Part shown: positions 1,601 through 28,052 of the stretch, piece by piece
Position numbering within the stretch: the stretch's first letter is position 1
Layout: every line of letters begins with the position of its first letter
Origin: Sphingopyxis terrae subsp. terrae NBRC 15098
Lineage (GTDB): Bacteria; Pseudomonadota; Alphaproteobacteria; Sphingomonadales; Sphingomonadaceae
Length of the DNA: 64,000 nt
Assembly: GCF_001598815.1 (NCBI RefSeq)
Contig: NZ_BCZQ01000018.1
Coordinates: 1 to 64,000 of the forward strand
Direction: 5' to 3'
Translations under genes and position numbers: made by a program
The notes under the pieces: generated by a model
Told to the model about the DNA's origin: nothing
Database searches by the model: none
What the model saw: the letters and a program-made list of their open reading frames with translations, nothing else

Positions 1601-1628
1601 CTTATGAATATCAATGCGGCTGCCTGCA

Positions 1629-3555: not shown

Positions 3556-3614
3556 TCATGACATCGGTGGGGCGTCAGAGGGCACCCCGCCGATGTCTTC
3601 CGACCCTCTGCTCT

Positions 3615-4013: not shown

Positions 4014-4156
4014 CGCTTTTCTCCACGGCGCGACTGTCGCGCCCTCCATGAGCAATCACAGGGGGCGGGCGGTCTGGCGATGGGCACGCGACAAAGCTCG
4101 ACACGCAAGCGACGACGAAATCATCCCCGTCCGAAATTCGACCAACGCGGACCTTG

Positions 4157-6069: not shown

Positions 6070-6165
6070 CGCTGGATCCCGGTCCGGCGACAAGGCTTGT
6101 CGCGGGGCGAACGGGGCTGGTCGCAGTGCTGTTTACGTCGAGGCGAATAAAAGCCCGTTGGGGAC

Positions 6166-7032
6166 ATGGCTCATGTTGCCCCATTCCGAAGCGGCGTTGG
6201 ATCATTCATACGCCTGCTGTCCTTTGCGGCCCTGCCGCTTTGCGTAGCGTCCGCTATAGCCGTCGGCCCGAGCGCTGATCCGGTCGACCGGATGATCGCG
6301 ACCGAGCTTAGTTTCGCGGACGACGCCCAGCTGATTGGTATCGCAGCGGCCTTTCGCCGCTATGCCGCGCCGGACGGCATATTGATGCGGCCCGATCCCG
6401 CGCCAGCGCTGGAAGTCCTGCAAGGCAGCGTCGATACGCCCGGTGTGCGTCTCGAATGGAAACCCGCAATTGCTGCCATGTCGCGATCGGGCGATCTTGG
6501 TTTCACGACCGGGCCTTATCGCCTGCTCCACGGTGACACCGTGATGAACGGCGATACGCTGACCGTCTGGGAACGCGGCGCCGATGGCCGTTGGGGCTGG
6601 TTTCTCGACCATGGCCTGCTCCCGGTCAAGGCGTCTGAGCCTGCCGCGCTCCCCACCGAGGTCGCGATACTCGGGCAGGGGAAGCCGGGCCGCCGCCGCC
6701 GCCCGTCGGGAGTGGCCGATGCCGATGCGGCGCTGAATGCAGCCATTGTTGCGACAGGAACGGCGGTCATTCCTGGTCGTCTCGCACAAGATGGATTCCT
6801 TCTCCGCCTGCAGCGCGGGCGGCTCTCGAAGGCGGACGCATTGCGGGTCAACGGCGACAATTTGCGGGCATCCGCGACCCAGCTGTTCGGAATGCGGGTT
6901 TCGCGCGCCGAGGATCTGGCGGCGACCTATGGCCGATTGACCTTCGACGACCCGCAAGGGTCGCACAATTATGTCCGCATATGGCGCCATGGTGCCACCG
7001 GCTGGCAATTGCTGGTCGACCTCATCAACTGA
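6166..7032 (+). CDS. Secreted NTF2-like (DUF4440/SnoaL-type) protein
   Basis: The 288-residue product has an N-terminal signal/anchor segment (about residues 17-32). It then carries two half-repeats with the features of NTF2-like cone folds: DLGFTTGPYRLLHG...WERGADGRWGWFLDHG in the first, and ATYGRLTFDDPQGSHNYVRI, then WQLLVDL, in the second. Such proteins bind small ligands or serve as non-catalytic domains; no catalytic residues can be named here. The ATG at 6166 is preceded by a GGGG stretch. It follows the LytTR regulator by 96 bases on the same strand and could be cotranscribed with it. A palindromic repeat lies directly after its stop. Confidence 0.65.
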   Translation: MAHVAPFRSGVGSFIRLLSFAALPLCVASAIAVGPSADPVDRMIATELSFADDAQLIGIAAAFRRYAAPDGILMRPDPAPALEVLQGSVDTPGVRLEWKPAIAAMSRSGDLGFTTGPYRLLHGDTVMNGDTLTVWERGADGRWGWFLDHGLLPVKASEPAALPTEVAILGQGKPGRRRRPSGVADADAALNAAIVATGTAVIPGRLAQDGFLLRLQRGRLSKADALRVNGDNLRASATQLFGMRVSRAEDLAATYGRLTFDDPQGSHNYVRIWRHGATGWQLLVDLIN

Positions 7033-7035
7033 TTT

Positions 7036-7090
7036 CCCTCCCCGGGAAAAGGAGGGTGTAGAGGGCGCCGGGGCGGCGGCCTCTGCACCC
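7036..7090. repeat. Palindromic intergenic repeat (two adjacent hairpins)
   Basis: Immediately after the NTF2-like gene there is a short hairpin (ccctcc at 7036-7041 with ggaggg at 7051-7056). A longer one follows: gggtgtagagg at 7054-7064 pairs with cctctgcaccc at 7080-7090, ten of eleven bases plus a wobble. It resembles the composite palindrome at 42252-42388 in being a double hairpin with purine-rich and pyrimidine-rich arms. It may act as a terminator or mRNA-stability element, or be a dispersed repetitive extragenic palindrome. Confidence 0.5.
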
Positions 7091-7176
7091 TTCGTCTGTT
7101 CCGGCTTGAATTTTCAGCGGAATTTTCATCGCTGGCTCGTCCGGGTCGGTCGCAAAAGGGCGGCCTGCACCCTTCG
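7083..7176. repeat. Direct repeats upstream of the first autotransporter
   Basis: Two perfect 12-base copies of ctgcacccttcg lie at 7083-7094 and 7165-7176, 82 bases apart. Between them gaattttca occurs twice (7108-7116 and 7120-7128), separated by gcg. They lie 65-160 bases upstream of the autotransporter start, in the expected promoter zone. Regulator binding is an inference. Confidence 0.45.
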
Positions 7177-13200: not shown

Positions 13201-14500
13201 CAGCGACCTGCTGCGCATCTCGGGCAAATTGACGATCGAACAGGGCGCGGCCATCGATATCACCGGCATGCTGCAGGGGACGCCGGGCAATATGCTCGAT
13301 CTGGTCGTCGCCGAGGGCGGCATCACCGGACGCTTCACCACCATCAACAAGTCGAGCGACATTTTCGGGTTCGTCGTCCAGAACGGCAACAAGCTCCAGA
13401 TCCAGAGCGAGTTCCTGAATGATGAGGCCTTTCCGACCAATGTGCGCGCAAGCGTCGATTATGCCAACCAGGTTTTGCGGGGCGGCTATGGCGTGCAGGC
13501 CTTCACCGCGGCGCTGCCGGTCCTCGTCAGCGGGCAGGGCGTCGTCAATCAGGAGGCCTTCCGCCAGCTCACGCCAGAAGCCTATGGCTCGGCGTTGCAG
13601 CTCGGGGTGGAGAACAGTCTCTCGCTGGTCGAAGGCGCCTATGCCGCTACCGCAGGCCGGTCGGGGCATAGCGGGCTCTACAGCTTCGGTCAGTTTCTGA
13701 CGGGAAGCGCGGACGTCAGTGCAACGGGGGGTAGAACCGGCGCCTCCAGCAGCCATCTGACCCGCGATGGCCTGTTCGGCGGCGTGGGCTATGGTTTCGG
13801 CGAGAATGCGCAGGTTGGGGTGTTCTTCGGTGGGCTGAAAAGCGACCAGACGATCGGAGGCCTGGGCGCGAAAACCGATATGAATGTGCTGGCGGGCGGT
13901 GCCTTTGCCGATATGACGCTGGGCGGCTTCGGAGTGCGGGGACTGTTGGCCTTCAACGGGGGCAAGGCCGCTACGCATCGCCGGACCGCCGTCGCTGAAA
14001 GTGAGGCCCGGGCGAAGTATAATCTCAACAGCTGGGTGGCCGATCTGTCACTCGATTATCAGGTTGAATTGGGGTCCTGGGCGATCGCTCCCAAGCTTGG
14101 CGTCACCTACGTTCACACCAGCCGCGGCGCTGCGGTCGAACAGGGTGCCGGCGATTTCGGCCTGACGATCGACAAGGGCAGCAAGGATCTCTGGTTCGGC
14201 GAAGCGGCCCTCGCCGCCTCGGGCAGCTTGCAGGCCGGCGGCATCGGAATCACCCCTTATGCCGAGATCGGCCTGCGCCAGATGTTGAACGACGGCAGCG
14301 TCTTGGTTTCGGGGCAATTCAGCGGCGCCGACAGCGGGATCGTCGTGAACGGGATCGAGCGTGAGAAAACCGCGGTACGTGTTACCCTCGGCCTTGGTCT
14401 CGACCTGGCCGACAGTGTGCGCGTGCAGGTCGGATACGCCGGAGAGTTCGCAGGCAGCACCCGTAACAGCTTCATGGGCGGCCTCGCGGTTCATTTCTGA
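7241..14500 (+). CDS. Giant type V autotransporter with duplicated beta-helix passenger (about 2,419 aa)
   Basis: The product has a long signal peptide ending ASARAQ. A beta-helical passenger of about 2,100 residues follows, with stacked motifs such as NSGTI, GGxGxDxL and LGDGDDRYIA, and a translocation-associated segment (GTLSPGASPGTMTVNG, near 13090-13150). A C-terminal beta-barrel of about 280 residues ends in phenylalanine (GGLAVHF). It should cross the inner membrane by Sec and insert its barrel by BAM, exposing the passenger. Residues encoded by about 10340-11550 are repeated at about 11600-12680 with a 1,251-base (417-residue) offset. The GGxGxD turns recall RTX calcium turns but lack strict nonapeptide spacing. 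The start is ATG 7241, or GTG 7250 with GAAGGA eight bases upstream. A terminator follows at 14542. Confidence 0.9.
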   Translation: MFPVNRINSAALSPRRGKAAIRGRAALLLGGALVPLMMAASARAQDQTVVLEEGQAPVAVELGAGSDRVVVDISRVNADTGVLDLTGLTTGPLTDAGGRDTVWLRATSSQTQNVVFTEPKGDTSQQFVRADSATGTPFDGGTVYEASGNDTVLTLENRSRSPIPSDPSKLPDNAFMNLRHGPLQFAGDGTVVLTFSVAAADQPEETQQAIRVLSGSTSQDQGTGGDGKLSLIIEGDVGGGSTFKGLIDVTNAESLRLRKNSRVQILEGTAIVGGNADIFLEANTWVNSTNGAFPDVTLIKSSGRVYNSTKITVGGQFGNPTAGGVAVRLDGGKLYNILTEGSTGTGVASGGLGNIIGGSSGVLAANGDNYIENVGDISANTGAAVESLRGTMVLRNTVWNFSKGGTRAGTITGGMVDGRRIAIQGGDGTDMVVNSGTITGDVDLGNREDMFLFTGATNGVTGTIEGGEGLDGYGRSFAASATNTLSNDILGNGNSGFEMHGIEASGADTIVTVAAAQTLDAGLMLVGNGSVVNTAKINADGFGVYLRDIANVTRGMRFTNNADVVSTKGVYGRAGVTSFLNTALIRATDGDGVFFNVGELGSSVKTLEFRNEGTIETTSDYDHALGMQFDASNSDGPLANVVNTGTIRNSGARETFYDYEQFGVRLFDISYEDGNSLSFRNEGLVETTGRGVGGVSLDSAHNDVVNSGTIRADGMGGSGVLIVSRLDPEQPMLVSSLVNSGLISANGGAWTNSDDGTVRFNAAVVIGLNGDTAKGRVVNSGTIEAMGAGSSAVIVGGDGAAGATFELENDGTIRGHAETLFRADQGVPEAYRRLAGAIHTVGTTDSITNRNLIQGNVDLGDYDDQFRNYGKLDGDLRLGEGDDTYVFGGGSSLTGSAYGGDGNDIIAVDLTGDMAKRINASQFFGFEALTRLQGTAGSGKVSIFGNIDSESLQLANIAVHVDAGDTVSSASGNSGYTFTGTDQDEQIVNAGTIAGGVSMGGGNDSLENSGTIGWDVDMGAGDDVVTNSGRIEGNVNLGDGDDRYIASGGGIVTGDIDGGAGNNTFVFRLEGSEGEIPGSVLNFSSFGAYGPGTLTVNLDKGQTYTNLELLEGADLVLTGSNGSVENVIGDDSAQNVTIDGALTGGVSLGGGDDVLTLNLGGELSGALDGGDGTDTLNLKLTAASTVNDLFNFEVVNVAGSASLTLAGTLGAGQSINFDEADNLFIVDTGATFNGRADGGAGTDTIEINTGAESNRTIIAGQLVSFERLVTGGDGTLALNGESYSFESVDIAGSLSIGDGASLTSASGVNFSDGNNKLTLEGTGNVNSPVDGGDGTDTLAFKLAQGQTRNLSSIGNITGFEQLGAEGAGTLNIDQSTDSYRRLLLGDGATVSLASEDGGNASIAEGVTFSGDIGGNNGANTLTLKAGATVDGSVYMNGGNDVITNAGTIDGDLDLGDGDDRYIARGGGVVTGTIDGGAGNNTFVFNLDGGNGSIPGSVVNFDSFGAYGPGTLTVNLDAGQTYNNLELLENANLVLTGSNGSVRNVIGDDSAQSVTIEGALTGGVSLGGGDDTLTMQLSGLLEGALDGGAGTDTLNLNLTGASSIAGMYGFEITNVSGASPLTLTGDFGAGQQINFVGEDDNELIIGAGVKFEGAVNGGEGRDLLRVQSGNSDNRTVVASQIVSFEDLVSEGAGTLALTGGAYSFESVAINGGNLELGANSTLASAAGVLFDGANNRFTLGSGASVTGQVDGGAGIDTLALVQGAGTTRLLSALDQTGFEILEASGAGELRIDRDAAFEGGVRIEGGAVSILADYSLTADVTGGSANDILSVYGSVDGNVDLGAGNDTLVIGGPGNITGTRSGGEGVDRLVFDTQGTYTAPTVFDGTGFADFEELGVAGGVVSLTTDTSWDKVVVSGGRLIGQAGTTISSTEAIQVAHGATFGTAGIVNADINVAGTLSPGASPGTMTVNGNVAFLAGSNLLIEVSPTVSDLLRISGKLTIEQGAAIDITGMLQGTPGNMLDLVVAEGGITGRFTTINKSSDIFGFVVQNGNKLQIQSEFLNDEAFPTNVRASVDYANQVLRGGYGVQAFTAALPVLVSGQGVVNQEAFRQLTPEAYGSALQLGVENSLSLVEGAYAATAGRSGHSGLYSFGQFLTGSADVSATGGRTGASSSHLTRDGLFGGVGYGFGENAQVGVFFGGLKSDQTIGGLGAKTDMNVLAGGAFADMTLGGFGVRGLLAFNGGKAATHRRTAVAESEARAKYNLNSWVADLSLDYQVELGSWAIAPKLGVTYVHTSRGAAVEQGAGDFGLTIDKGSKDLWFGEAALAASGSLQAGGIGITPYAEIGLRQMLNDGSVLVSGQFSGADSGIVVNGIEREKTAVRVTLGLGLDLADSVRVQVGYAGEFAGSTRNSFMGGLAVHF
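10340..12680 (+). repeat. Tandem 1,251-base duplication inside the first autotransporter passenger
   Basis: Matching landmarks repeat with constant 1,251-base offset: the segment encoding GDGDDRYIA (gacgatcgct at 10361 and gacgaccgct at 11612), GGAGNNTFVF, SFGAYGPGTLTVNLD, LVLTGSNGSV, and IGDDSAQ followed by GALTGGVSLGGGDD. The second copy fades near 12680, in a region matching the end of the first near 11430. Copies differ at many positions, so the duplication is old or under diversifying exchange. Confidence 0.8.
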
Positions 14501-15807: not shown

Positions 15808-18800
15808 TCAGAAGTCCAGCTTCGCGCCGATGCGGAAATAGCGGCCCATGATGTTCGGACCGGCCCAAGCCGGGTTGAAACCATAGCTGCCATAGGCGGC
15901 ATTGGGATCGAACGGCGGCTTGATATCGAGGACATTCAGGGCATTGGCATAAAGGGTGAACTTGTCGTTGATCCGGTGCGACGCGATCAGATCGAGATTC
16001 CAGACCGCTTTAGACCGGCACATCACCGGCGTTCCGTCATCATAGGCCGCAGCGCCTACATCCAGCGCGCTCTGACAATTTCCCGGCGTGGCGCCGAAAT
16101 CGACCTGCGCGACGTCATAACCGCTGGTGTAATAGGCCGTGGCCGAAACGGTCGTGTTGCCGAAGGACAGCGTATTCTGCCAGCTCGCGCGCCAGCGCGG
16201 CGAGCCGGAACAGGAGGTCGTGTTGCAGGGGCTCAACGTGCCCTCATATTGCAACGGGTCAGCGGCAGCTCCGGTGAGCGGATCGACCAACGTCAGATGA
16301 TTTTTGTCGAGATAGGATGCTTCGAACGAGCTCTCCCATTGCAGCCTGTCGGCGAGCCAGAGCCGGGCATTGATCCCGAAATCTACGCCCTGAACCAATT
16401 GACGATTTGCATTGGTGTAAGATGCCTGAATTGAGCCGATATGCGGCAGGGCTCCGGGGTTCGCTTGGTCGACGACCCCTTGTGTGACGGTAAACCCGGG
16501 GATGTTAACGACACCATTGTTCGAATAATAGGCCGCTATGGCAGGGCCGATCCCGGTGACACCGACGATCTGGTCGCGAATTTTGATCCGCCAGAGGTCG
16601 ACGGTGAAGTTCAGGTTGCGGACGGGCTCGAAAATTGCTCCCAGCGTGATGTTTTCAGATTTTTCGGGAGAGAGTTCAGGGTTCCCCACGTTGGTCAATC
16701 CCACCGAAAAGGGTGAGGCTGCATAGCTGTTATTGCCGTGAGCGGCGCAGAAGTCGGCGTAGGTGTTGCAAAAATTTCCGCCACCCTGTGAAAGGAAACC
16801 GGTTGTCGGAAGGCCGAAGGCTTCGTTGAAGCTCGGAATGCGAAAGCCTCTCGACCAGGTCCCGCGCACTGCCAACTGCGGAATGGGGGTGAACTTGACG
16901 CCGACCTTGGGCGAAAAATTCTTCTGCCCGGTCGAATAGGAATCATAACGGCCCGACAAATTCATTTCGAGCTCATCGACGATTTGCACCCCGATTTCAC
17001 CGAACGCCGAAAAGACATTACGGCTACCGGCCGTGCCCACTGCGTTGATCCCATAATAGCGATCATAGGGGTGCGCGTCGTTTTGCGGATTGGCGCTTGG
17101 TGCATCGATCGCCTCGTGGCGATACGCAAGGCCCAAGGCCATCTCAAGTGGGCCGCCTGGCAGTTCGAATACCGAACCCGAGACCGCTGCTGTCGCCTGC
17201 CAAAGATCGGAGGTGGAGCGTGTTACATTCGTGGGCATAATGTAATCCCACACATCTTCGGGGGTGGCCGCCGGGTTGGCGAAGTTGAGCGTGCCGCGCG
17301 CCAGGACGTCCATGATTCTTTGCGGGATGGGGTAGCCGCGCTGAACACGATCGAGCTGTACGTTCGAAGCGGTGAAGTCGGCAGAATACTTCCATTTGTC
17401 CGCCAGTGACCCGGTGAGACCGATCACACCGCGCAGCGACCGCACGGAGGTTTCGTCGCTCGTGGGGCGATCGGGAGAAAAGAATAGCTGCGCGGTTTGC
17501 CCATCGGATGCATAGGGGTTGTAAGGATTGAGCGTGCCGTTGGTTGCATCGCATCCCGTCCCGGCGCCGTTCAGCGTACCCACCCCGGTCGGGCAAACAT
17601 AAACCGGCGCGATGACATTGTAGACGACGGCGGAGCCACGCGGCGCGGTTGGGCGATCGCGAAATCCTCGCGGCGCTTGCAGTGCAAAAGTATCCGTCCG
17701 ATAATAGTTACCTTGGATGTAAATCTCATGCGCGTCACCCAGTTTGGCCGTGAAGCGCGTTGAAAATCCGAAGCGCTCGACATCGGGTTGCAGCATGCCG
17801 TAAGCCCCGACAGTATTCGCCTCGCAGATGCGGCCATCGGCGGGAGCCGACGCCGATCCTCCCTGCTCGGGGTCCAATTGCTCGGGCGTGAGTTGTACAG
17901 GGGTCCAGCGACCACAACCTAGCGCAGGATTCAGGAAGGAAAAGCGACCGGAGCCCAGGTCTCCGCCAGCGGTGGCTACCGGGCGGACCATTACCACGCC
18001 GGGGACAGCGAACAGGGTGTTGATCGATCCGTCCGGACTGACCCCGTTGGCGTTGAGATTGTGCATGCACGCGCCGTCGGCGTTGCAGATGCGGCTCCAG
18101 TCCGAGGTGTTGAACGGATAGCCGCGGTCGCGCGCCCACAGGGCATCCTGCTTCAGATATTCGCCGCTGATATACAGGTTCAAACCTTGATCCGCGAGGT
18201 CGCCATAACCATAGGTCGCGTCGAAGCGCTGCTCGCCGGCGTCGCCGCGCTGCGATATTCCCATCGACCCATTCAGATGCAGGCCGTTGACCTGCTTCTT
18301 GGTGATGACATTGATGACGCCTGCGACCGCGTCGGCGCCATAAGTCGAAGACGCCCCATCGCGAAGCACTTCGATACGCTCAACGATCGCGTTCGGGATT
18401 GTGTTCATGTCGACGAAGTTGCGCTGACCATCGTCCGCGAGCGGGTAGGGGGCCATGCGCAGCCCGTCGAACACAGTCAGAGTCGATTGAACGGTAAGAC
18501 CTCGCAGCGCAATTGCGTTGGCACCAGCCGCGAAATTGTTCCCATTGTTCCACCCTTGCGTAATCGTACCGGCATTGCCGGCCGAAATACGCTGCATCGC
18601 GTCCGCCACCGTGTTGAGGCCGCGCCGCTCCATCGTTTCGGCAGACAGCACAGTGACAGGAGAGGCTGTCTCGGCATTGGTACGGCGGAATAGCGAGCCG
18701 GTGACGACGATGGCTTCTTCCGGCGCTGCCGCTTCCTCCGCGCTGGCATGGAGATGCTGCTCAAGGGGCGCTAGCGAGCTTTCGCCTGCCTGCAGGCTCT

Positions 18801-18906
18801 GGGCATAGACCGGGGTCACCAGCAGCAACCCGGCTGCCGGGAAGAGCGAGGCCAGTGCGGTCGTGCTACACAGCATTTTGGCCATAGTCATGTTTCGTTT
18901 CATCAT
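15808..18906 (-). CDS. TonB-dependent outer-membrane receptor
   Basis: The 1,032-residue protein has a signal peptide (MMKRNMTMAKMLCSTTALAS... cleaved near VYAQS). A spacer and a plug domain follow (EEAIVVTGSLFRR, RGLNTVADAMQRISAG, RIEVLRDGASSTYGADAVAG, GVINVITKK). The large beta-barrel ends in a terminal phenylalanine (RYFRIGAKLDF). It imports an unknown substrate across the outer membrane using TonB energy. Cysteine pairs occur in several putative extracellular loops (CNADGAC, CNTYADFC, CNTTSC), a pattern seen in many sphingomonad and caulobacterial receptors. The double ATG at 18906 follows AGAGGG on the minus strand. Its upstream region is shared with the divergent HTH-hydrolase gene. The substrate cannot be inferred from sequence alone. 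Confidence 0.93.
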   Translation of the reverse strand: MMKRNMTMAKMLCSTTALASLFPAAGLLLVTPVYAQSLQAGESSLAPLEQHLHASAEEAAAPEEAIVVTGSLFRRTNAETASPVTVLSAETMERRGLNTVADAMQRISAGNAGTITQGWNNGNNFAAGANAIALRGLTVQSTLTVFDGLRMAPYPLADDGQRNFVDMNTIPNAIVERIEVLRDGASSTYGADAVAGVINVITKKQVNGLHLNGSMGISQRGDAGEQRFDATYGYGDLADQGLNLYISGEYLKQDALWARDRGYPFNTSDWSRICNADGACMHNLNANGVSPDGSINTLFAVPGVVMVRPVATAGGDLGSGRFSFLNPALGCGRWTPVQLTPEQLDPEQGGSASAPADGRICEANTVGAYGMLQPDVERFGFSTRFTAKLGDAHEIYIQGNYYRTDTFALQAPRGFRDRPTAPRGSAVVYNVIAPVYVCPTGVGTLNGAGTGCDATNGTLNPYNPYASDGQTAQLFFSPDRPTSDETSVRSLRGVIGLTGSLADKWKYSADFTASNVQLDRVQRGYPIPQRIMDVLARGTLNFANPAATPEDVWDYIMPTNVTRSTSDLWQATAAVSGSVFELPGGPLEMALGLAYRHEAIDAPSANPQNDAHPYDRYYGINAVGTAGSRNVFSAFGEIGVQIVDELEMNLSGRYDSYSTGQKNFSPKVGVKFTPIPQLAVRGTWSRGFRIPSFNEAFGLPTTGFLSQGGGNFCNTYADFCAAHGNNSYAASPFSVGLTNVGNPELSPEKSENITLGAIFEPVRNLNFTVDLWRIKIRDQIVGVTGIGPAIAAYYSNNGVVNIPGFTVTQGVVDQANPGALPHIGSIQASYTNANRQLVQGVDFGINARLWLADRLQWESSFEASYLDKNHLTLVDPLTGAAADPLQYEGTLSPCNTTSCSGSPRWRASWQNTLSFGNTTVSATAYYTSGYDVAQVDFGATPGNCQSALDVGAAAYDDGTPVMCRSKAVWNLDLIASHRINDKFTLYANALNVLDIKPPFDPNAAYGSYGFNPAWAGPNIMGRYFRIGAKLDF

Positions 18907-19435
18907 ATTCAGCCCTCTTTTTTCCCATCGACACTCGCGCACCGCTGTGCGTCGCAGTTTGACGGGCTTGGTAGGTGGCGCAGAGGGACGCGCGAAGCCG
19001 TTCGACGGATTTGCTCCGCCGTCTACTTGCCCCAGACGCCCCGCAGTGCCGCGCCCGTATTCGAAAAGGGCGCACCGCAAGTGATAGGTCGCACCCGTCG
19101 AGCCTTCCGGCTAAAGCGACGGAAGTCGACGGCGATGCGACGGAGGCGGCGGCCGTGCAGACGGTAGGTTATTTGGAAGTGGCGTGCCGCGCTTCATGTA
19201 AGTCGGGAAGTTGAAGCCGCTCGCCGTGGCCGGTGAGATGCCCGCGAAGCCTTGGCTTCCTCAGCCTTCGATGATCCACGAAGGAAGGTTGCGATCGTCG
19301 GCAAGAAGCAGGCCGAGGCCGGGCGAGTGCGCGGTTTTGAAGGTGAGGACTCCCGGTTCGAGCTGTTCAAAGCGAGCCCGGCAAAGTGCGATTGCAATTG
19401 ATCTTGTTTTCAAAAGGAAAATCGCGACAGTCGGG
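18907..19435. promoter_or_regulatory. Shared divergent promoter region of receptor and HTH-hydrolase regulator, with a long hairpin
   Basis: These 529 bases separate two divergent genes. A dyad at 19095-19132 has a 13-bp arm (cggaagtcgacgg, 19120-19132). It pairs with ccgtcga plus cttccg (19095-19109), interrupted by a two-base bulge. Several copies of gcgacgg or tcgacgg cluster around it (19116-19145). The plus-strand frame is open far upstream of the ATG at 19436, but the residues there look non-coding. The dyad is a candidate operator or leader element; direct evidence is lacking. Confidence 0.5.
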
Positions 19436-20854
19436 ATGATACAAGATTCAGGGGCGGCGCTTAGATTGATCTCGAACCCGGCATCCGACTGCATCGGCGC
19501 CTACGACAATGCGTCGCGCGCCAACGTGGCCCGAATATTCGCGCTTTCGCCGCGTCAGGCCGAACTATTGTGGAATCTCGTCGATACCGGGGCGCTGCGC
19601 GACGCAGCGGTTTCAGCGGGCATTTCCTATGTTTCGGCGCGCAACATGCTCGCGGAGATCAAGGTCAAGCTGGGGCTGGACACGATCCCGCTGATCGTCG
19701 GACAGGTTCTTGCGATCAGCGATCATCATGCCGGAGCCACGCAGTTGCACGATCTGTTCGGGCTCAGTGATCGGCAGTTTGCAATCGCCCGTGCCGTTGC
19801 GATCCGCAAGAGCCGCGCCGAAATCGCTGGATCGCTGCACCTTTCGGAATCGGTGATCGATGCCGAGATGAAGAATATCCACCTGATCCTTGGTACCGGC
19901 AATGCGGCGGAGGTCGTCCGGATCGTTTCCGCCGCGCTTGAGCATCCTTCGGTCGATGCCGAGCCCGAGATAACGATGCTCGACGGCCATGTGCTGCCCG
20001 CCGCTGCGATCGACCATGGGGGGCGCAGGATCGCCTATTCCGATTATGGCCCGGCGGGAGGCAAGCCGGTGTTGATCCTGCACAGCACGATAACCGCGCG
20101 CGCGCCGCCGACGCGGCTGGTGCGCGTACTGGCGGCGCGCGGCTTCCGCGTATTGGCCATCGACCGGCCGGGGTTCGGGGGTACCGACCCGGCGGCCGAC
20201 TGGTCGTCGCTCTATCGCCCCGCGTCGGACGATGTCGCGGCGGTCTGCGCGGCGCTGGGCATCGCGCATATCGATCTTGTCGCGCGGGGGAGCGGTCAGG
20301 CGGCGGTCTGCCTCGCGCACCGTCACCCCGATCTGGTGGCGCGCGCCGTCCTCGTCAATCCGACCCCGGCGATCGATCACACGCCGCACGACCGCGGGCC
20401 GCTCGGCATCGTCAAGCGGCGCTTTGCGGCGAACCCGGCGGTGATCGAACTGATGATCCGCACGCTCGCCCGCTTCGCCACCGCAACGCGCATGCGCGAC
20501 GGCATGATCCGCTCCTATCGCGACAGCCCGCCCGATCTCGCGCTGGCCGAAGGCGATCCGCAGTTCGTGGCGGATTATCTGCGCGCGACGCGCGATTTCG
20601 CGCGCGGCCGGATTCGGGGCTATGTCGAGGAACAACGCGCCTGGGCGACCGGTTTCGACGTCGAACCGCTGCCCGGAAAGGCGCAGTGGCGCATCGTGCA
20701 GGGCGCCCATTATATCTTGCACGCACCCGACGCCGCGATCGCCTATTGGCAACCGCGACTGCCCGACACGCCGGTCAGGCGGATCGCCGATGCCGGCCAG
20801 ATGCTCGCCTATTCGCACCCCGAAATCGTCGCCGAAGCACTTGCCGAGGCGTGA
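19436..20854 (+). CDS. Two LuxR-type HTH units fused to an alpha/beta-hydrolase
   Basis: The 472-residue protein begins with two LuxR-like helix-turn-helix units in tandem. The first (about 36-93) reads LSPRQAELLWNL, then AAVSAGISYVSARNMLAEIK. The second (about 109-168) reads LSDRQFAIARAVA, then EIAGSLHLSESVIDAEMKNI. An alpha/beta-hydrolase fold follows (about 195-472) with GKPVLILHS, AIDRPGFGGTDP and a terminal HYILHAPDA motif carrying a histidine. The nucleophile elbow is LVARGSGQAAV: the serine (S286) is present but its flanks are not the usual small residues, so catalysis is doubtful and ligand sensing is plausible. The ATG at 19436 is my choice; longer in-frame starts exist. It is divergent from the TonB receptor gene and upstream of a second LuxR-type gene, suggesting local regulation. 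Confidence 0.8.
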   Translation: MIQDSGAALRLISNPASDCIGAYDNASRANVARIFALSPRQAELLWNLVDTGALRDAAVSAGISYVSARNMLAEIKVKLGLDTIPLIVGQVLAISDHHAGATQLHDLFGLSDRQFAIARAVAIRKSRAEIAGSLHLSESVIDAEMKNIHLILGTGNAAEVVRIVSAALEHPSVDAEPEITMLDGHVLPAAAIDHGGRRIAYSDYGPAGGKPVLILHSTITARAPPTRLVRVLAARGFRVLAIDRPGFGGTDPAADWSSLYRPASDDVAAVCAALGIAHIDLVARGSGQAAVCLAHRHPDLVARAVLVNPTPAIDHTPHDRGPLGIVKRRFAANPAVIELMIRTLARFATATRMRDGMIRSYRDSPPDLALAEGDPQFVADYLRATRDFARGRIRGYVEEQRAWATGFDVEPLPGKAQWRIVQGAHYILHAPDAAIAYWQPRLPDTPVRRIADAGQMLAYSHPEIVAEALAEA

Positions 20855-21034
20855 TTTTTTGAAAGAACCATACATTCCGGGATGGACGCCGCCGCCGCCG
20901 CGCTTTTAGGTAGACGTCCCCACGGCGGACTTCGACGGTCGGCGCGCAGGGCAATGATATCCGTATAAGGCAGGGGTCGGTTTTGAGCATGGGCTGCGCG
21001 CAGCGCGGTCAACTCGGGGTGATGAGGGCAGGGC

Positions 21035-22141
21035 ATGGGGCAGCGTATCCCGCCGGATTGGGACGACATATTTCTTGAAGCAGCACTGGAACCCGCAAAT
21101 TGGCTGGGGGCGCTCGACCGCATGGCGAGGCATACCGGATCCAGCCACGGACAGTTGATCGGCGTCGGTGGCGCTCGCGAGCGGCCTTTCAATATCGTTA
21201 CCAATTTCGGCCCCGACATGATCGCGAAGGCGCAGAGCAACGATTGGTACGGCGAGACGACGAATTTTCGCATCGCCGTGTCGAACCAGCATGTTGCCAA
21301 AGGCCATTATGATCCGATCCTGCACGAAGCGCATTATGATGCCGCGGTCGAGACGCTCGAATCGCGCGACTATGTCGACTGGTGCGAAGAGATCGGCATT
21401 CCCTTCGGCTGCCAGACCAATCTCGTCATCGACAACTTCGGCATTGTCGGGCTGGCGACGCTCCGCAATCGCGGCGATCGCCGCACCACCGACGATCAGC
21501 GCGGTATATTTGCGCAAGCGGCCGCCGCAGCTCGCCGCGCGGTGCGCTTGCAGGAAAAGCTCGAAGGCCAGCAGGCCCAACTGCTTGCCGGTGCTTTCGA
21601 CGCGATTTCGGTGACCGCCTTCATCCTCGATGCCCGGGGCAATTTGCTCGCGCATACGCTGGCGGCGGAGGCCTTGCTGCAAGCGGGAACGGTCCGGCAG
21701 GTCGGGTCGTCGATCGATGCCGGCGGCGCCCCCCATACGCTCCGTGCCTTGATCCAGGCGCTGATTGCCGAAGAGGGTGCGCGGCATGGCCGCACGATGC
21801 TGGCGACCGGAGATGCGGCGCCGTCGCTGATGATCGAGGGCTTTCGCCTTCCCGAGCGCGACTGGTCGCTGGGCAAGCGACCGCACGCGATTTTGGTCGT
21901 CAACCCGCCCCGACGCGACCGCGCGGGCGTTACGCCCTTCCTCTCGACGCTCTACCGGCTCAGCCCGGCGGAGGCCGACATTGCGCTGCGCCTGTTCGAA
22001 GGAAAGACCCGCGCACAGATCAGCGACGAACGCGGCGTGACGGCTGAAACGCTGCGCGGACAGATCAAGCAAATCTATCAGAAGTGCGGTGTCGACGGGG
22101 AGGCGGCACTGATGCGTTTGCTTGCACCGATTTTTGCATAG
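21035..22141 (+). CDS. LuxR-family transcriptional regulator
   Basis: The 368-residue protein has an N-terminal alpha-helical and mixed segment. A central region follows, with GIPFGCQTNLVIDNFGIVGL then LRNRGDRRTTDD, and a PAS-like stretch (AFILDARGNLLAHTLAAEAL). The C-terminal LuxR-type HTH (about 305-366) reads YRLSPAEADIALRLFEGKTR, AQISDERGVTAETLRGQIKQ and IYQKCGV. It should bind DNA and respond to an unknown intracellular cue. It lies 180 bases after the HTH-hydrolase gene and 274 bases before the second autotransporter, both on the same strand. Control of the autotransporter is an inference from position. Two GC-rich hairpins follow its stop. Confidence 0.8.
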   Translation: MGQRIPPDWDDIFLEAALEPANWLGALDRMARHTGSSHGQLIGVGGARERPFNIVTNFGPDMIAKAQSNDWYGETTNFRIAVSNQHVAKGHYDPILHEAHYDAAVETLESRDYVDWCEEIGIPFGCQTNLVIDNFGIVGLATLRNRGDRRTTDDQRGIFAQAAAAARRAVRLQEKLEGQQAQLLAGAFDAISVTAFILDARGNLLAHTLAAEALLQAGTVRQVGSSIDAGGAPHTLRALIQALIAEEGARHGRTMLATGDAAPSLMIEGFRLPERDWSLGKRPHAILVVNPPRRDRAGVTPFLSTLYRLSPAEADIALRLFEGKTRAQISDERGVTAETLRGQIKQIYQKCGVDGEAALMRLLAPIFA

Positions 22142-22193
22142 GCACCCCCCGCGCGGGGGGTGACGCCAGGGTGCCGGCTAAATTACGGCACCC
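22142..22193 (+). terminator. Two adjacent GC-rich hairpins after the LuxR-type gene
   Basis: The first, starting 22142, is the near-perfect palindrome caccccccgcgcggggggtg. The second pairs gggtgccg (about 22169-22176) with cggcaccc (about 22186-22193) around a ctaaatta-type loop. No T tract follows, so this may be a terminator working with Rho or an RNA-stability element rather than an intrinsic terminator. Confidence 0.5.
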
Positions 22194-22268
22194 AATCGGG
22201 GACTAAGGGGTCGTTCGCCGGGTGCCGATTGCTGCGACGCAATCCGCCCCGCGGGAACGGGCACCGGT

Positions 22269-22303
22269 AACCGGCCACTCGATGCGACCCCGAGTGGCCG
22301 GTT
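22269..22303 (+). promoter_or_regulatory. 13-bp perfect hairpin in the leader of the second autotransporter
   Basis: aaccggccactcg at 22269-22281 and cgagtggccggtt at 22291-22303 are exact reverse complements around a 9-base loop (atgcgaccc). The structure lies 113 bases upstream of the autotransporter ATG and is not followed by T residues. A short internal palindrome (ccggtaaccgg, 22265-22275) overlaps its left arm and could form an alternative fold. It may be a leader RNA structure or a large DNA operator. Confidence 0.65.
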
Positions 22304-22415
22304 GCTCCCAAGGACAGGGGATCGTGACGGACATTGCGGACAAGGTCATCCGGGGCGCGAGGCGCCTTTCGGAAACCCTGCCGCTCGGGCTTGAAACTGA
22401 AGGGGTTTTCACATC

Positions 22416-25400
22416 ATGTCGACCATTGCCAAATCGCGTCTGCTGACGACCAGCGCGATCGCCGGAATTTCGATCCTGCAACTGGGCGCTGCCGCCCATG
22501 CGCAGGAACAGACCCCCGCTTTCGGCGTGCATGTGGACCAACCCGGGACGGTCGAGGTCAATGTCGGCGAGGACGAGGAAATCGTTGGTAACGACATCGG
22601 TATCTACGCGGATAATGGCACGGTCATCGTCGACAATGCCGGGACGATCCGCGGGGACGGCTTTTCGCCGGCGGGGCTGGACAGCCGGCCAGCCGGTGGC
22701 ATCGTCATCGCTCAGCCGGGGGCGTCGATCACCAACAGCGGGACGATCAGCGGCGCGGCAAACGGGATCGCCACGTCCTATTTCTTCAGCGAGGATGAAA
22801 ATGGCGACAATCTGCCGCCGGCGGCGCTCGCCGCCGACACGGTCGTCGTCAACAGCGGTCTGATCAGCGGGGAAGGCGGAGCGGGCGTATCGCTCGTCGG
22901 CGGCGGCAGCGTCACCAACGATGGCACCATCCGCGGCGCCAATGGCGCGCCGGGCAGCGGGATCAACGGCATCGGCGTCGCGATCGCCGAATTTCCCGAC
23001 CGGATCGCCGAGGGGGTTGAAGGCGTCGGATCGATCGTCAACAGCGAAGACGGGCTGATCGAAGGCCAGGCTATCGGCGCCGTCTTGCAAGGCGGCGGCA
23101 CGATCGAGAACCAAGGCACGATCCGTGCCTTTGGACAGTTCAATCCGGCGACGCCGGCAGCGCAGACGCCGATCGGCGTTGTTATGACTGCCACGCCCCA
23201 CCAGCAGGGACGGAGCGCGACACTGACCAACGACGGACTCGTCCAGGGGTTCATCGGTGTGGTCGCAACCGGTTCGCTGGAGACGGTAACCATCAACAAT
23301 GAAGGTGCGATCATCGGGCAGGGGATCGGTATCACCGGTCAATCGACCGGCGACCTGATCGTCAACAATGGCGAAGACGCACAGATTGTGGCGAGCGGCA
23401 ATGCGATCGCGGCCAATACGAGCACGCTCACCGTCGACAATGCCGGGCTGATCCAGAGCCAGGGCCAGGTCGGCATCAACATAGCCTCAGCGAATGCGGT
23501 CATCGTCAACAGCGGCGGGATCGTCGGCGGCACCAACGCGATCACGACCGCGGCGCTGCAGACCGCGCCGAACATTTTCGTCAATACGGCCGTTAACGCC
23601 AGCGTGACCAACAGCGGCTCTATCACGGCGCAAAACGGCACGGGCGTCAGGTTCCAGGGCGGCGGATCGGTCGCCAACAGCGGGTCGATCAGCGGCACCG
23701 TCGACGGCGTCTATATCGCGATGCTTCCCGATCAGGATGCCGAAGACTTTTCGGCGACGGTTGCCAACGAAGCCGAGAGCGAAGTGTCGGGAGGGCGGTT
23801 CGGCGTCAACCTGATGGCTGGCGGTTCGGTCGAGAATGACGGCAGCATCAGCGGTGGCATTACCGGCGTCGTCGTCCAGAATGCGCTCGGCCTTGCCGAT
23901 GTGGCGGGCAGCGTGACGAACGGTGGCTCGATCACCGGCACCGATGCCTTCGGCGTCGCCTTCGATGGCCTGGCCAGCGCGACGCTGACGAACAGCGGCA
24001 CGATCACCGGCGGCGGCAACGATGGCGTCAACGTCAGCTATATGCCCGGTGGCCACACGATGATCGACAATCAGGACGGCGCGACGATCACCGGCGCGGC
24101 TTCGGGCATCCGCATCGACGATGGTACGGCAGAGATCGTCAACGCGGGCACGTTCCGGGGCAACGGCAGCAGCACCGACCTCTATTTCTATCCCGACGCG
24201 GGCATCACCGTTACCGGCGGGGTAGCGACCATCACCAACAGCGGCACCATTTCGGGCAATCGTCTGGGCATTACCACCGCGCCCTATATGGATCCCTTCA
24301 CGGGCGAATATAGCGGCGTTGCGGTCGGCGCGGCGGTCGTCAACAGCGGTACGATCATCGGCGACAATGACGATGGCGTCCGCCTGATCGGCGGCGGCAG
24401 TGTGACCAACAGCGGTACGATCGAAGGTCGCACCGAAGCCTTTGCCGACGGCATTTCGATGTTCGCCTATACCGATCAGGCGAACGAGGATTATGCGGCC
24501 AGCGTGACCAATCAGGACGGCGGTTCGATCGCAGGGCAGCGCTTCGGTATCATCCTGTCGGGGGGCGGTTCGGTCGATAATGCCGGCGAGATCGTCGGCG
24601 TCGCTGGCGGCGTGTTCATCCAGGGCACCGCGCTCAACAGCGCACCGGGCGAGGATCGCAGCGGGCTGACCGCCAGCGTCGTCAACAGCGGCCTGATCCA
24701 AGGCACGGGCGACCTGGGCGGCAGCGGCGGCGACGGCTATGGCGTCGGCTTTGGCAGCGACATGTCGAGCGCCACGCTCGAAAACAGCGGTACGATCCTG
24801 AGTGACTTCGGAGCCGCGGTTTCGCAAGGGTCGCGTGCAGACGTCACCGTCACCAATCTGGAAGGCGGAACGATCGAGGGCGCAACATCGGGCATCTATT
24901 CCTTTGCGACCGGGACGCTCACGGTGGACAATGCCGGGACGATCCGCGGCAACGGCAGCTACGACGGCTTCGCCGCCGCGCCCGACGCCGGGATCACGAT
25001 CACGACCGCAACGTCGAGCGTGACGAACAGCGGCACCATCTCGGGCGCGGGCGCAGGGATCACCACCGCCTATCAATTCGATGACGATATCGGCGATCTG
25101 GTCGGCATCGCGATCGGAACCACGGTCGAGAACAGCGGCACCATCAGCGGCGAATCGAACGATGGCGTCCGCCTGATCGGCGGCGGCACCGTAACCAACA
25201 GCGGTACCATTACCGGTGCGGGGGCTTCCTTTGCCGATGGCGTGTCGATGTACGCCTATGACGGACAGGATGGCGAGAGCTTTGCGGCCAATGTCGTCAA
25301 CAGCGCGAGCGGAACGATCGGTGGCGACCGGTTCGGTATCATCCTGTCGGGCGGCGGCACCGTCGACAATGCGGGCACGATCGCCGGCACCACCGGCGGC

Positions 25401-28052
25401 GTCCTCATTCAGAGCGACCTTGCCGACACGCCCGGCCTGCTCGGCAATTTCATCAACAGCGGGGCCATCACCAGCGCCGATGGCGCGGCAATCATCGCCC
25501 ATGTCCAGTCGAACGTCACCAATGCGGGCACGCTGAGCGGCGGAAATGGCGTCGCAATCCAGCTCGATGCGTATGACGATGTGGTGACGCTGAAGACCGG
25601 GAGCGCCGTCGATGGCCTGATCGACGCCGGGGCGGGCGAAGACAGCCTGGTACTCGATGGCGATGTCCTTGCACTGACCGAGGCGCAGCAGCTGACTTCG
25701 TTATCGGGTTTCGAAGCGCTGACGGTCGCGGCGGGCTATTGGTCGACCAGCGGCATGGTCGGCGAATTCGGCAACGTCGTGATCGACGAAGATGCTGCGT
25801 TGCAGGTCAATGAAGTGGTTGGCGAAGACGGCGCGGAATCGCCCATCCTGACCCCGGCGGTGACGACCAACGGCTTGCTCGTGCTCAACTTCGGCGACGA
25901 TGAGACCGTCTCGAACCTTGACGAACTGACGATCAGCGGCAGCGGCAAGCTGCAGTTGATCGGCGATGCGGTATTCACCGTCGATACCGATACGGTGGCG
26001 CACACCGGCGGGACGATCGTGTCGGACGGCGGCCTTGTCCTAACCGGCCTGCTTCAGGGCGATGTGAAGACCGAGGGCGACGGCTATTTCGAACTCGGCG
26101 CGGGCGGCACCGAAGGCAGCTTCGCGGGCGACATCGTCAACGACGGGCGTTTCGTTTTCAACCGTTCGGACGATTACGACTTCCTCGGTGCCTTTTCGGG
26201 TAGCGGCACGCTCGACAAGCTGGGTGACGGCACGCTGACCTTCATGGGTGACTATGGCTTCCAGGGCGTGACCAACATCTTTGGGGGCGCCGTGCGGATC
26301 GGCGGGACGATCGACCCCGGTACCGACTTCAATCTGGGTGAAGGCGGGTCGCTCGACATCACCGGAAAGGACCAGACGATCGGTGGCCTTGCTGGCGAGA
26401 GCGGCGCCCAAGTCGTGCTCGGCGACAATCAACTGACCGTCGATCAGGACGACAATAGCGAATTTGCCGGCACCATTTCGGGAAGCGGCGGCTTCGTCAA
26501 ATCGGGTGACGGTACGCTCAACCTGTCGGGCGACAGCGACTATACCGGCCCGACGACCGTCGATGGCGGCAAGCTTGCCGTCAACGGTTCGATCGTCTCC
26601 GACGTCACCGTCAATGCCGGCGGCGCGCTGGGCGGCAACGGCAGCGTCGGCACGACGACGATCAATGGCGACGGCAAGTTGACGCCGGGCAACTCGATCG
26701 GGCGCCTCACCGTCAACGGCGATCTCGATTTCGCGGCCGGTTCGGTCTATGAGGTGGAGGTCAATGCCGCGGGTGCGGGTGACCGCGTCGATGCGACGGG
26801 CCTCGTCACCATCGACAGCGATGCGAGCGTGGCGGTGCTGGCGGAGGACGGCGACTATAACGGCCGCACCGACTATGTGATCCTGACGGGTGCGGGCGGG
26901 ATCGACGGCACCTTCGGTTCGGTGACCAGCGACCTGGCCTTCCTTGATCCGCTGCTGCGTTACGGCGCCAATTCGGTGACGCTGTCGCTGTATCGCAACG
27001 ACGTCGATTTCGCCGACGTGGCGATCGGGTTCAACCAGGCGAGCGTTGCCGCGGCGGTCCAGTCGCGCGGCATCGACGATCCGCTGTTCGAAGCGGTGGT
27101 CAACCAGAATGCGACCGGCGCGCAGGCCGCTTTCGGTGATCTCTCAGGCGAAATTCTTGCCAGCACGCTCAGCGGGCTGACCGACGATAGCCGGCACCTG
27201 CGCAACGCGTTGTACAGCATGTCGGGTCCGGCCGAGGCCGGCCTCTTCCTCTGGGGTTCGGCCTTTGGCGGCTGGGGCGACTTCGATGCCAAGGGAGGAC
27301 GCTTTGGCATGGATACCGACCACAAGGGCTTCGTCACCGGCATCGGCTATGGCGGCAACGGCTTCGCGGCGGCAATCTCGGCAGGGATCGGCGACAGCGA
27401 TTTCCGCCTCGGCGGCCGCAACGACCATGCACAGGCCGACAGCAAATATCTGGCCGCACATGTCAGCTATGGCACGGGCGAGGGCGTTCGCGCCGCCGCC
27501 GGCCTTGCGTATGGCTGGCATGATATCGACACCAGCCGTTCGATCAGCGTCGCGACGCTGGCGCAGACGCTGACGTCGAAGCGCGATGCGGACACGATGC
27601 AGCTCTTCGGCGAACTTGGTTATGACGTGCGGACGAGCAACCTTGCACTGACGCCCTTCTTCCGTCTTGCCCATGTCCGCACCAAGAGCGACGCCTTTGC
27701 CGAAGCCGGCGGCAATGCGGCGCTTTCGATCGCGGCGGCAAAGCAGGAAACGACCTTCGTCAGCCTGGGCGGCCGCGTACGGTTCAACATCGGTGAGGGC
27801 TTCCAGCCCTATGTGTCCGCCGCGTGGAACCGGGCTTCCGGCGACCGCGGTGCGCCGGTGGCCGCGGCCTTCACCACCGGGGGCGGCAGCTTCGCCCTGA
27901 TCGGCACGCCGATCCCGAAGAATTCGGCCGAGATCGAAGCGGGCTTCGATTATAGCGCGGGCAATTTCCGGATCGGCGCCGCCTATAGCGGTACACTGGC
28001 CGGCGATCGCAACACCCATGGCGCACGCGTGACCGCACGGATCGCCTTCTGA
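22416..28052 (+). CDS. Type V autotransporter with long-period passenger repeats (1,878 aa)
   Basis: The protein has a signal peptide ending AAAHAQ (about residue 29). A beta-helical passenger follows, rich in VTNSGTI, VDNAGTI and GVRLIGGGSVTN strands. Two autotransporter-associated repeats (KLGDGTLTFMGDYGFQGVT and KSGDGTLNLSGDSDYTGPTT) and the segment LTPGNSIGRLTVNGDL come next. The C-terminal beta-barrel (about residues 1600-1878) ends in phenylalanine (TARIAF). It should be secreted by Sec and assembled by BAM, displaying or releasing the passenger. One long module occurs near 24110-24880 and again near 24890-25470 with a 789-base (263-residue) offset, plus a more diverged copy near the N-terminus. 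The ATG is preceded by AAGGGG eleven bases upstream. A 12-bp hairpin follows its stop. Confidence 0.9.
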   Translation: MSTIAKSRLLTTSAIAGISILQLGAAAHAQEQTPAFGVHVDQPGTVEVNVGEDEEIVGNDIGIYADNGTVIVDNAGTIRGDGFSPAGLDSRPAGGIVIAQPGASITNSGTISGAANGIATSYFFSEDENGDNLPPAALAADTVVVNSGLISGEGGAGVSLVGGGSVTNDGTIRGANGAPGSGINGIGVAIAEFPDRIAEGVEGVGSIVNSEDGLIEGQAIGAVLQGGGTIENQGTIRAFGQFNPATPAAQTPIGVVMTATPHQQGRSATLTNDGLVQGFIGVVATGSLETVTINNEGAIIGQGIGITGQSTGDLIVNNGEDAQIVASGNAIAANTSTLTVDNAGLIQSQGQVGINIASANAVIVNSGGIVGGTNAITTAALQTAPNIFVNTAVNASVTNSGSITAQNGTGVRFQGGGSVANSGSISGTVDGVYIAMLPDQDAEDFSATVANEAESEVSGGRFGVNLMAGGSVENDGSISGGITGVVVQNALGLADVAGSVTNGGSITGTDAFGVAFDGLASATLTNSGTITGGGNDGVNVSYMPGGHTMIDNQDGATITGAASGIRIDDGTAEIVNAGTFRGNGSSTDLYFYPDAGITVTGGVATITNSGTISGNRLGITTAPYMDPFTGEYSGVAVGAAVVNSGTIIGDNDDGVRLIGGGSVTNSGTIEGRTEAFADGISMFAYTDQANEDYAASVTNQDGGSIAGQRFGIILSGGGSVDNAGEIVGVAGGVFIQGTALNSAPGEDRSGLTASVVNSGLIQGTGDLGGSGGDGYGVGFGSDMSSATLENSGTILSDFGAAVSQGSRADVTVTNLEGGTIEGATSGIYSFATGTLTVDNAGTIRGNGSYDGFAAAPDAGITITTATSSVTNSGTISGAGAGITTAYQFDDDIGDLVGIAIGTTVENSGTISGESNDGVRLIGGGTVTNSGTITGAGASFADGVSMYAYDGQDGESFAANVVNSASGTIGGDRFGIILSGGGTVDNAGTIAGTTGGVLIQSDLADTPGLLGNFINSGAITSADGAAIIAHVQSNVTNAGTLSGGNGVAIQLDAYDDVVTLKTGSAVDGLIDAGAGEDSLVLDGDVLALTEAQQLTSLSGFEALTVAAGYWSTSGMVGEFGNVVIDEDAALQVNEVVGEDGAESPILTPAVTTNGLLVLNFGDDETVSNLDELTISGSGKLQLIGDAVFTVDTDTVAHTGGTIVSDGGLVLTGLLQGDVKTEGDGYFELGAGGTEGSFAGDIVNDGRFVFNRSDDYDFLGAFSGSGTLDKLGDGTLTFMGDYGFQGVTNIFGGAVRIGGTIDPGTDFNLGEGGSLDITGKDQTIGGLAGESGAQVVLGDNQLTVDQDDNSEFAGTISGSGGFVKSGDGTLNLSGDSDYTGPTTVDGGKLAVNGSIVSDVTVNAGGALGGNGSVGTTTINGDGKLTPGNSIGRLTVNGDLDFAAGSVYEVEVNAAGAGDRVDATGLVTIDSDASVAVLAEDGDYNGRTDYVILTGAGGIDGTFGSVTSDLAFLDPLLRYGANSVTLSLYRNDVDFADVAIGFNQASVAAAVQSRGIDDPLFEAVVNQNATGAQAAFGDLSGEILASTLSGLTDDSRHLRNALYSMSGPAEAGLFLWGSAFGGWGDFDAKGGRFGMDTDHKGFVTGIGYGGNGFAAAISAGIGDSDFRLGGRNDHAQADSKYLAAHVSYGTGEGVRAAAGLAYGWHDIDTSRSISVATLAQTLTSKRDADTMQLFGELGYDVRTSNLALTPFFRLAHVRTKSDAFAEAGGNAALSIAAAKQETTFVSLGGRVRFNIGEGFQPYVSAAWNRASGDRGAPVAAAFTTGGGSFALIGTPIPKNSAEIEAGFDYSAGNFRIGAAYSGTLAGDRNTHGARVTARIAF
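24110..25480 (+). repeat. 789-base long-period repeat inside the second autotransporter passenger
   Basis: The two copies share the order GTxRGNGS, PDAGIT, TNSGTISG, then GVRLIGGG, FADG, YAY and FGIILSGGG. The shared caacggcagc occurs at 24161 and 24950, giving an offset of 789 bases or 263 codons. A third, weaker version lies at about 22600-23110. Confidence 0.7.

Follow-up and report, generated by a model that had tools for sequence, protein, structure and literature searches.

A tandem-HTH pseudo-hydrolase encoded beside an autotransporter gene in Sphingopyxis terrae, a candidate regulator of exported or surface proteins

Genes and features at the locus

The window analysed in this study, a stretch of 64,000 nucleotides from Sphingopyxis terrae subsp. 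terrae NBRC 15098, carries an ORF of 472 codons with an ATG start (Table 1). The same frame is already open from a TTG codon at position 19211, and the shorter ATG start is backed by both close orthologues. An earlier note, made from the sequence of the window alone, had called a gene here, and the ORF bears this out. Downstream on the same strand lie a gene for a 368-amino-acid LuxR-type regulator, whose orthologues are 74-75% identical, and a gene for an autotransporter of 1878 amino acids. The order of these three genes is kept in the window and in both close orthologues (three genomes), and the LuxR-type gene and the autotransporter are 72-75% identical in both.

Two additional observations concern the surroundings of this cassette. 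About 128 bp of the autotransporter leader (22190-22317) are absent from both orthologues and include a perfect 13-nt inverted repeat (22269-22303). The insertion was considered as a repeat element, a reading rejected on its single copy in the genome. Beyond the divergently oriented TonB-dependent receptor gene, a second giant autotransporter-like gene spans 7241-14500 on the plus strand (about 2419-2509 amino acids). Its PF03797 barrel was found in the genome search (E 6e-35), and the protein scan gave only FTP.

Table 1. Features of the locus, with positions in the window
Feature	Position	Strand	Basis
TonB-dependent receptor, divergent neighbour, judged outside the system	15808..18885	-	Pfam, neighbour comparison
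472-aa regulator, tandem LuxR-type HTH and pseudo-alpha/beta-hydrolase (short form)	19436..20854	+	ORF, Pfam, AF2, profiles
HTH1 (residues 39-94)	19550..19717	+	AF2 helices 39-51, 54-61, 65-79, 84-94
HTH2 (residues 112-169)	19769..19942	+	AF2 helices 112-122, 127-134, 138-152, 157-169; GerE E 2.2e-4
Pseudo-alpha/beta-hydrolase domain (residues 189-472)	20000..20851	+	Abhydrolase_1; structural match 9wlv
Elbow Arg284-Gly285-Ser286, nucleophile position deleted, Arg near-invariant in family	20285..20293	+	Alignments
Candidate operator, short-form variant ATCCCGGAATGTATGGT	20867..20883	-	Identical in G093, G095; genome scan
368-aa LuxR-type regulator (GerE-like C-terminus, N-terminus without Pfam match)	21035..22141	+	Pfam; orthologues
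1878-aa autotransporter, PATR repeats and beta-barrel, proposed target	22416..28052	+	PF03797 E 9.5e-48; cassette, census

Two HTH units precede a hydrolase-like domain

An AF2 model of the 472-amino-acid protein, computed from 49 aligned family members, has a mean pLDDT of 82.8 and a pTM of 0.66 and consists of two four-helix units followed by the hydrolase domain, with no other folded domain. Because the pTM is below 0.7 and the linkers are of low confidence, the relative arrangement of the domains is not fixed by the model. HTH2 scores 21.2 against Pfam GerE, just under the cut-off of 23.5, and HTH1 has no GerE match of its own. However, a profile of HTH2 matches HTH1 of the window protein (E 0.0034), and the reverse search, with a profile of HTH1, recognises the other HTH region at E<0.05 in 40 of 53 rows, including the distant relatives L183 and L184 (29 and 35 bits). 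HTH1 was therefore named a duplicated LuxR-type HTH. GerE is matched at E<=0.01 by 24 of the 49 family members, and Abhydrolase_1 is present in 47 of them; the window protein itself matches Abhydrolase_1 at E 1.4e-12. Structural comparison of the AF2 model with VIA gave 9wlv as a match with Z 31.4 (rmsd 2.2, 278 residues aligned); the other 49 matches listed have Z values of 24.0-25.8. Tandem HTH units at the N-terminus with a hydrolase-like domain behind them had been proposed in the earlier note, which also suggested predicting the structure of the full protein, and the AF2 model and the profile matches support two units rather than one or none.

The resemblance to LuxR/NarL-type (GerE) regulators such as EL222 lies in the four-helix HTH, and the family profile matches the LuxR HTH of EL222 (8a5r) at E 5.9e-10, aligned at HTH2. 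In contrast to these regulators, which have one C-terminal HTH, the family has two in tandem at an N-terminal or central position, with the hydrolase fold after them. Unlike quorum-sensing LuxR proteins, the window protein has no Pfam match to an autoinducer-binding domain and lacks a single C-terminal HTH, its HTHs occupying residues 39-169 of 472. Unlike response regulators, it has no receiver domain: Response_reg is absent from the window protein and from the 17 Pfam families listed for the 49 members.

The hydrolase active site is lost

HMMER alignments to three solved hydrolases place a gap at the catalytic Ser/Asp, between Arg284 and Gly285. The gap measures one residue in two of the alignments and two residues in the third. 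The serine of the RGSGQ segment (Ser286), which had been taken for the nucleophile of an atypical elbow, falls after the gap and thus outside the nucleophile slot, and this assignment was ruled out. The elbow is shortened by one residue in 49 of the 53 aligned family rows, and the residue ahead of the gap is Arg in 47 of these, Lys in L048 and His in L178. Normal elbow spacing is seen in the four distant relatives (L053, L054, L183 and L184). As a side observation, these four have the hydrolase domain behind an HTH, with Ser at the slot in L183 only, and L184 adjoins a YadA-head protein and a P450-reductase fusion.

In the column of the catalytic His, after Gly454, 50 of the 53 rows have Gln or Arg; the exceptions are L177 and L179 (Val) and L183 (Asp), and no row has His. 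The acid, three residues after Gly423, is Asp in most members and is replaced in the subgroup of the window protein. In the register given by the profile alignments, the window protein has Gln455 at the position of the catalytic His and Tyr426 at that of the acid. With the nucleophile deleted, the His lost family-wide and the acid lost in the subgroup, the domain is a pseudo-hydrolase: the alpha/beta-hydrolase fold is present and the nucleophile-His-acid triad is not. The suggestion that the domain does not hydrolyse a ligand thereby gains a stronger basis than the one on which it was first made.

Despite divergence to about 30% identity, His216 is invariant in 49 rows and Arg222 and Arg284 are nearly so. 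From this conservation we infer that the three residues are candidates for a pocket and would face it; the two arginines may suit an anionic ligand, which the pocket would bind.

RsbQ and the plant proteins GID1, D14 and KAI2 are stand-alone receptors, of which RsbQ, D14 and KAI2 keep the catalytic triad and GID1 keeps the Ser. They resemble the present family in using a hydrolase fold for signalling, and RsbQ (1wom) is among the sequence matches. Here, by contrast, the hydrolase fold is joined to DNA-binding domains and has lost its nucleophile. The enzymes of this fold, including the esterase-like 9wlv, haloalkane and fluoroacetate dehalogenases and HsaD, are alike in fold and cap, whereas the window protein has the nucleophile deleted, His replaced by Gln and the acid replaced by Tyr.

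Distribution and forms of the family

Profile searches place the family in 13 of 80 Sphingopyxis genomes (E<=1e-20) and in 35 of 397 genomes of the taxonomic family (E<=1e-25), where the weakest match covers only HTH2 onward. Members also occur in named Caulobacter, Phenylobacterium, Sphingomonas, Novosphingobium and Porphyrobacter records. The window genome has a single family match (E<=1e-20), and no plasmid match to the 472-amino-acid protein was found at E 1e-20.

A typical member has about 600 amino acids, with an additional N-terminal segment of ~150 amino acids. The short form, which is without this segment, is that of the window protein, L164 (75% identical to it) and L031 (72%), which together make up one clade. 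For the long member L043, an AF2 model (pTM 0.87) shows a mixed alpha/beta N-terminal domain, which we call PAS-like by the order of its strands and helices only. This domain has no Pfam match in L043, the one long form scanned, and a VIA search with the full long-form model returned matches filled by the hydrolase domain. A description of a tandem-HTH pseudo-hydrolase family was not found in the literature searched, which included passages of PMC3466318 and PMC5413776.

A candidate operator is associated with family genes

The divergent promoters of the long-form loci L043, L156 and L159 have the motif ATCCCCnnTTGTAGGGTAT in common, though the flanks have diverged in L159. We scanned 44 held-out loci, leaving out the window, the training clade (L043, L156 and L159) and the sister copies L162, L163 and L031. 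At <=3 mismatches, 17 sites occur in 16 of these loci, all within 500 bp outside the family gene, and none elsewhere in 509 kb. In 28 of the 44 there is no site near the gene at this threshold. Without the hairpin clade described below, 14 sites in 13 loci remain, where 0.09 would be expected; here as elsewhere in this analysis, the statistics ignore the relatedness of genomes. As a control, 30 loci without a family member gave one site in 531 kb. With a site matrix, 29 of 51 loci yield 30 near sites, a partly circular count because the matrix was built on sites. A further 13 sites are weaker or lie farther away; four of these exceed 12 bits, all <=1.2 kb from a family gene.

The association holds on the scale of whole genomes. 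At <=1 mismatch, sites are present in nine of 11 genomes with a family member: one each, at the family locus, in G035, G075, G099, G077, G093, G095, G089 and G490, and two in G493. G020 has a pair at 2 mismatches only and G000 has none. Ten genomes without a member have no site at <=1 mismatch and three at 2 mismatches, and the reversed pattern matches six times at <=2 mismatches over the 21 genomes. The second G493 site lies away from the family locus, about 57 bp before an RsaA_NTD/FG-GAP gene, a class of gene that shares its operator with the regulator in L032 and L036 (an 86% identical pair). In G490, a second and weaker site (2 mismatches) has no clear gene start adjoining it. The sister group L180-L182 has neither the canonical motif nor the variant described below. 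Taken together, these counts suggest that ATCCCCnnTTGTAGGGTAT is a family-specific motif and likely the family operator. In L155, identical copies at 7994 and 9963 lie one on either side of the family gene.

In one clade (L050, L051, L052, L157 and L172), the motif lies near the 3' end of the regulator gene or of a neighbour. The L051 motif, the only one folded in this clade, sits at the apex of a very stable hairpin (-41.8 kcal/mol, z -6.6), and for this reason the sites of the clade were left out of the operator count. Five other motif sites that were folded have no unusual stability (z -0.78 to 1.45).

A candidate variant site lies between the regulator and LuxR-type genes

The canonical motif was sought and is absent from the window and its genome at <=2 mismatches. 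Of the family traits, the window protein has the two HTHs and the shortened Arg elbow; in place of the canonical operator the window has a candidate variant, ATCCCGGAATGTATGGT. The variant lies 12 bp 3' of the stop codon of the 472-codon gene and 5' of the LuxR-type gene, and is identical and in the same place in both orthologues (G093 and G095). It sits within a conserved block (20852-20889) of 38 columns, two of them mismatched, and the remaining intergenic region has diverged. No other match at <=3 mismatches occurs in the 4.08-Mb genome. Of the 17 specified positions of the consensus, the variant matches 12 and differs at five, a level that shuffled sequence also reaches. Since this agreement is at chance level, the argument rests on the position and conservation of ATCCCGGAATGTATGGT, on which we give even odds that it is the protein's own site.

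Genes that start at the motif frequently encode exported proteins

Autotransporter genes start at the motif in L043, L156, L159 and L033, where it lies between the regulator and the autotransporter gene. RsaA/RTX-type genes start at the motif in L032, L036 and L039, and in L220 at a distant site, and PEP-CTERM protein genes do so in L034 and L167. The partner in L038 is a Big_9 protein with a lipoprotein-like start, and several further partners are small proteins whose N-termini resemble signal peptides. In L048, the motif adjoins an ORF that opens with a signal-peptide-like stretch and matches no Pfam family; an autotransporter ORF follows, possibly as part of the same gene. By a crude heuristic, exported proteins are enriched among the partners (16 of 27, versus 148 of 568 other genes; P 4e-4, with the partners partly interrelated). 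Neighbour genes were called with a custom gene caller, and their starts are approximate. The partners in L049 and L178 are of neither exported nor surface type, and the neighbours of other members are mixed.

The autotransporter is linked to the family within Sphingopyxis

Among the 13 Sphingopyxis genomes with the family, an autotransporter lies within 10 kb of seven of 15 family loci, with two neighbouring copies in G095 counted as one locus. The expected number is 0.31 (P 6e-9, with genomes treated as unrelated), and each of these genomes has 2-8 autotransporters. Outside the genus, a classical autotransporter is nearby in only three of 34 member genomes (G491 at L033, G160 at L169 and G502 at L048, the last matched by coordinates and tblastn); the autotransporter sites of G499 and G497 fall outside L044 and L040. 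The five other autotransporters of the window genome have no family member beside them. As a separate observation on the second family member of G093 (L163), a 2339-amino-acid two-partner-secretion exoprotein with MBG and GLUG repeats (130-7146) precedes the regulator, and an autotransporter lies about 3 kb away on the opposite side.

Autotransporters of the type encoded in the window are present in 35 Sphingopyxis genomes, and the regulator in 13 of 80, which indicates that the regulator is not needed for the autotransporter in general. We examined 36 autotransporter loci in these 35 genomes, comprising 30 newly fetched loci (15 with gene calls and 15 by tblastn alone), the window, L031, L164, L043, L156 and L159. 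Forty genomes had matched the autotransporter, and five were omitted: G018 (fragments) and G067, G086, G089 and G103 (C-terminal match of 42% or less). By tblastn, all 36 loci have a LuxR-type regulator or a LuxR-type two-component pair at the 5' side of the autotransporter gene. This slot is occupied by a kinase-type system in 29 loci, a divergent long-form family gene in three, a short-form family gene with the LuxR-type gene in three, and a LuxR-type gene alone in one (L200). No locus has two kinds of regulator within the stretch fetched, and the motif does not occur at <=2 mismatches in any of the 30 loci that lack a family member.

In the 29 kinase-type loci the histidine kinase gene is divergent, with a response-regulator gene behind it in 28; a contig end cuts the 29th. 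Pfam scans of examples found 7TMR-DISM and HATPase_c in the kinase and Response_reg and GerE in its partner. This system occupies the same 5' slot beside an orthologous autotransporter, but it is a two-component system with a membrane-type kinase, and the GerE-type HTH is the only part seen in common with the family. The same autotransporter is therefore found behind unrelated LuxR-type regulators. The nearest relative of the window autotransporter (98% over 894 columns) is that of G013, a kinase-type locus. DNA similarity between the two begins at 22400, 16 bases ahead of the start codon, and stops at 28118; these limits indicate that only the coding unit is common to both. In an autotransporter tree of 37 rows (L195 left out, L033 and L169 included), the well-supported branches require the kinase label to change at least 4 times. 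One copy of each locus type is present in G099. The kinase is absent from the three short-form genomes (E<=1e-50), and G035, G075, G081 and G032 retain it elsewhere with no autotransporter within 20 kb (22 kb in G081).

A proposed role and its alternatives

The presence of the motif beside these genes, together with the surface and exported proteins among the neighbours, suggests that the regulator probably responds to some signal by turning a surface protein on or off. We therefore favour, with a probability of about 0.6, a one-component regulator with a dead hydrolase domain, whose target is an adjacent gene encoding an exported or surface protein. The catalytically dead domain would act as a sensor of a ligand (or a protein). 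The 472-amino-acid protein would bind the motif, an imperfect dyad that is ATCCCCnnTTGTAGGGTAT in much of the family and probably ATCCCGGAATGTATGGT here, and its two tandem HTHs, as parts of one chain, would read the two half-sites. In the window, the adjoining gene under its control would be that of the 1878-amino-acid autotransporter, which it may regulate together with, or through, the 368-amino-acid LuxR-type protein.

The earlier note had proposed that the protein senses a molecule imported by the TonB-dependent receptor and regulates the receptor across a dyad-bearing promoter region. The receptor gene is indeed the divergent neighbour in the window. However, tblastn found no receptor homologue in the 17-kb loci of the closest orthologues, L031 and L164; an iterated profile labelled a 120-amino-acid fragment at the far end of L031 as TBDR. 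By that profile, TonB receptors make up three of 48 5' neighbours (those of the window, L038 and L166); Pfam finds the plug domain in two of 31 upstream neighbours scanned, and the window genome has 56 plug domains. Homologues of the regulator thus lack a conserved linkage to TonB receptors. Only weak inverted repeats were found in region 18886-19435, in a scan run without a chance control, and little of this region is conserved in the orthologues, where other genes occupy it; the dyad was set aside as an operator candidate. The receptor looks like an accidental neighbour, and we regard the TonB-based proposal, which was dropped, as highly improbable. The note was right in spotting a protein that is real and unusual, and the tandem HTHs and the family-specific operator-like motif support its description as a regulator, but the partner and the residue it named are wrong.

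A different view of the pseudo-hydrolase, rather unlikely in our judgement, is that it serves as a module for protein interaction or oligomerisation, with the signal entering elsewhere, for example through the PAS-like domain or the 368-amino-acid LuxR-type protein. The loss of all three catalytic residues in the subgroup and the separate N-terminal domain of the long forms, PAS-like by secondary structure only, would fit this role. They must be set against the conservation of His216, Arg222 and Arg284 at the divergence noted above, and against the absence of any other folded domain in the short-form model. It is unlikely, too, that the protein regulates only itself and the LuxR-type gene, with the autotransporter under other control: the variant site precedes the LuxR-type gene and not directly the autotransporter gene, as this would have it, yet in four other loci (L043, L156, L159 and L033) the motif stands between regulator and autotransporter gene. 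Very unlikely is a motif that acts as a transcription terminator or RNA element instead of an operator. In the hairpin clade most sites are near the 3' ends of convergent genes, as a terminator would be, and L051 forms its stable hairpin; the other five sites folded are unremarkable, many sites lie in divergent promoters away from called 3' ends, and the central TTGTA is common to Caulobacter and Sphingopyxis. The terminator reading was retained for the hairpin clade only, where L051 alone was folded.

A bolder version of the favoured one-component regulator can be put forward tentatively. The nucleophile-deleted, Arg-fitted hydrolase may be a pure ligand sensor mounted on a covalent 'pseudo-dimer' of LuxR-type HTHs. 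Such a protein would have one or two operators per genome and would control a giant surface protein, the gene for which would, in related strains, have been swapped between a two-component system and the regulator described here.

Significance

These findings give an unnamed family a testable function: the receptor would be a dead enzyme, its DNA site is predicted, and the targets would include autotransporters, RTX/RsaA-like, PEP-CTERM and other exported proteins. How large surface proteins are regulated in Sphingomonadales and Caulobacterales can thereby be tested directly. The occurrence of one autotransporter behind two unrelated regulators amounts to a natural experiment in the replacement of regulators.
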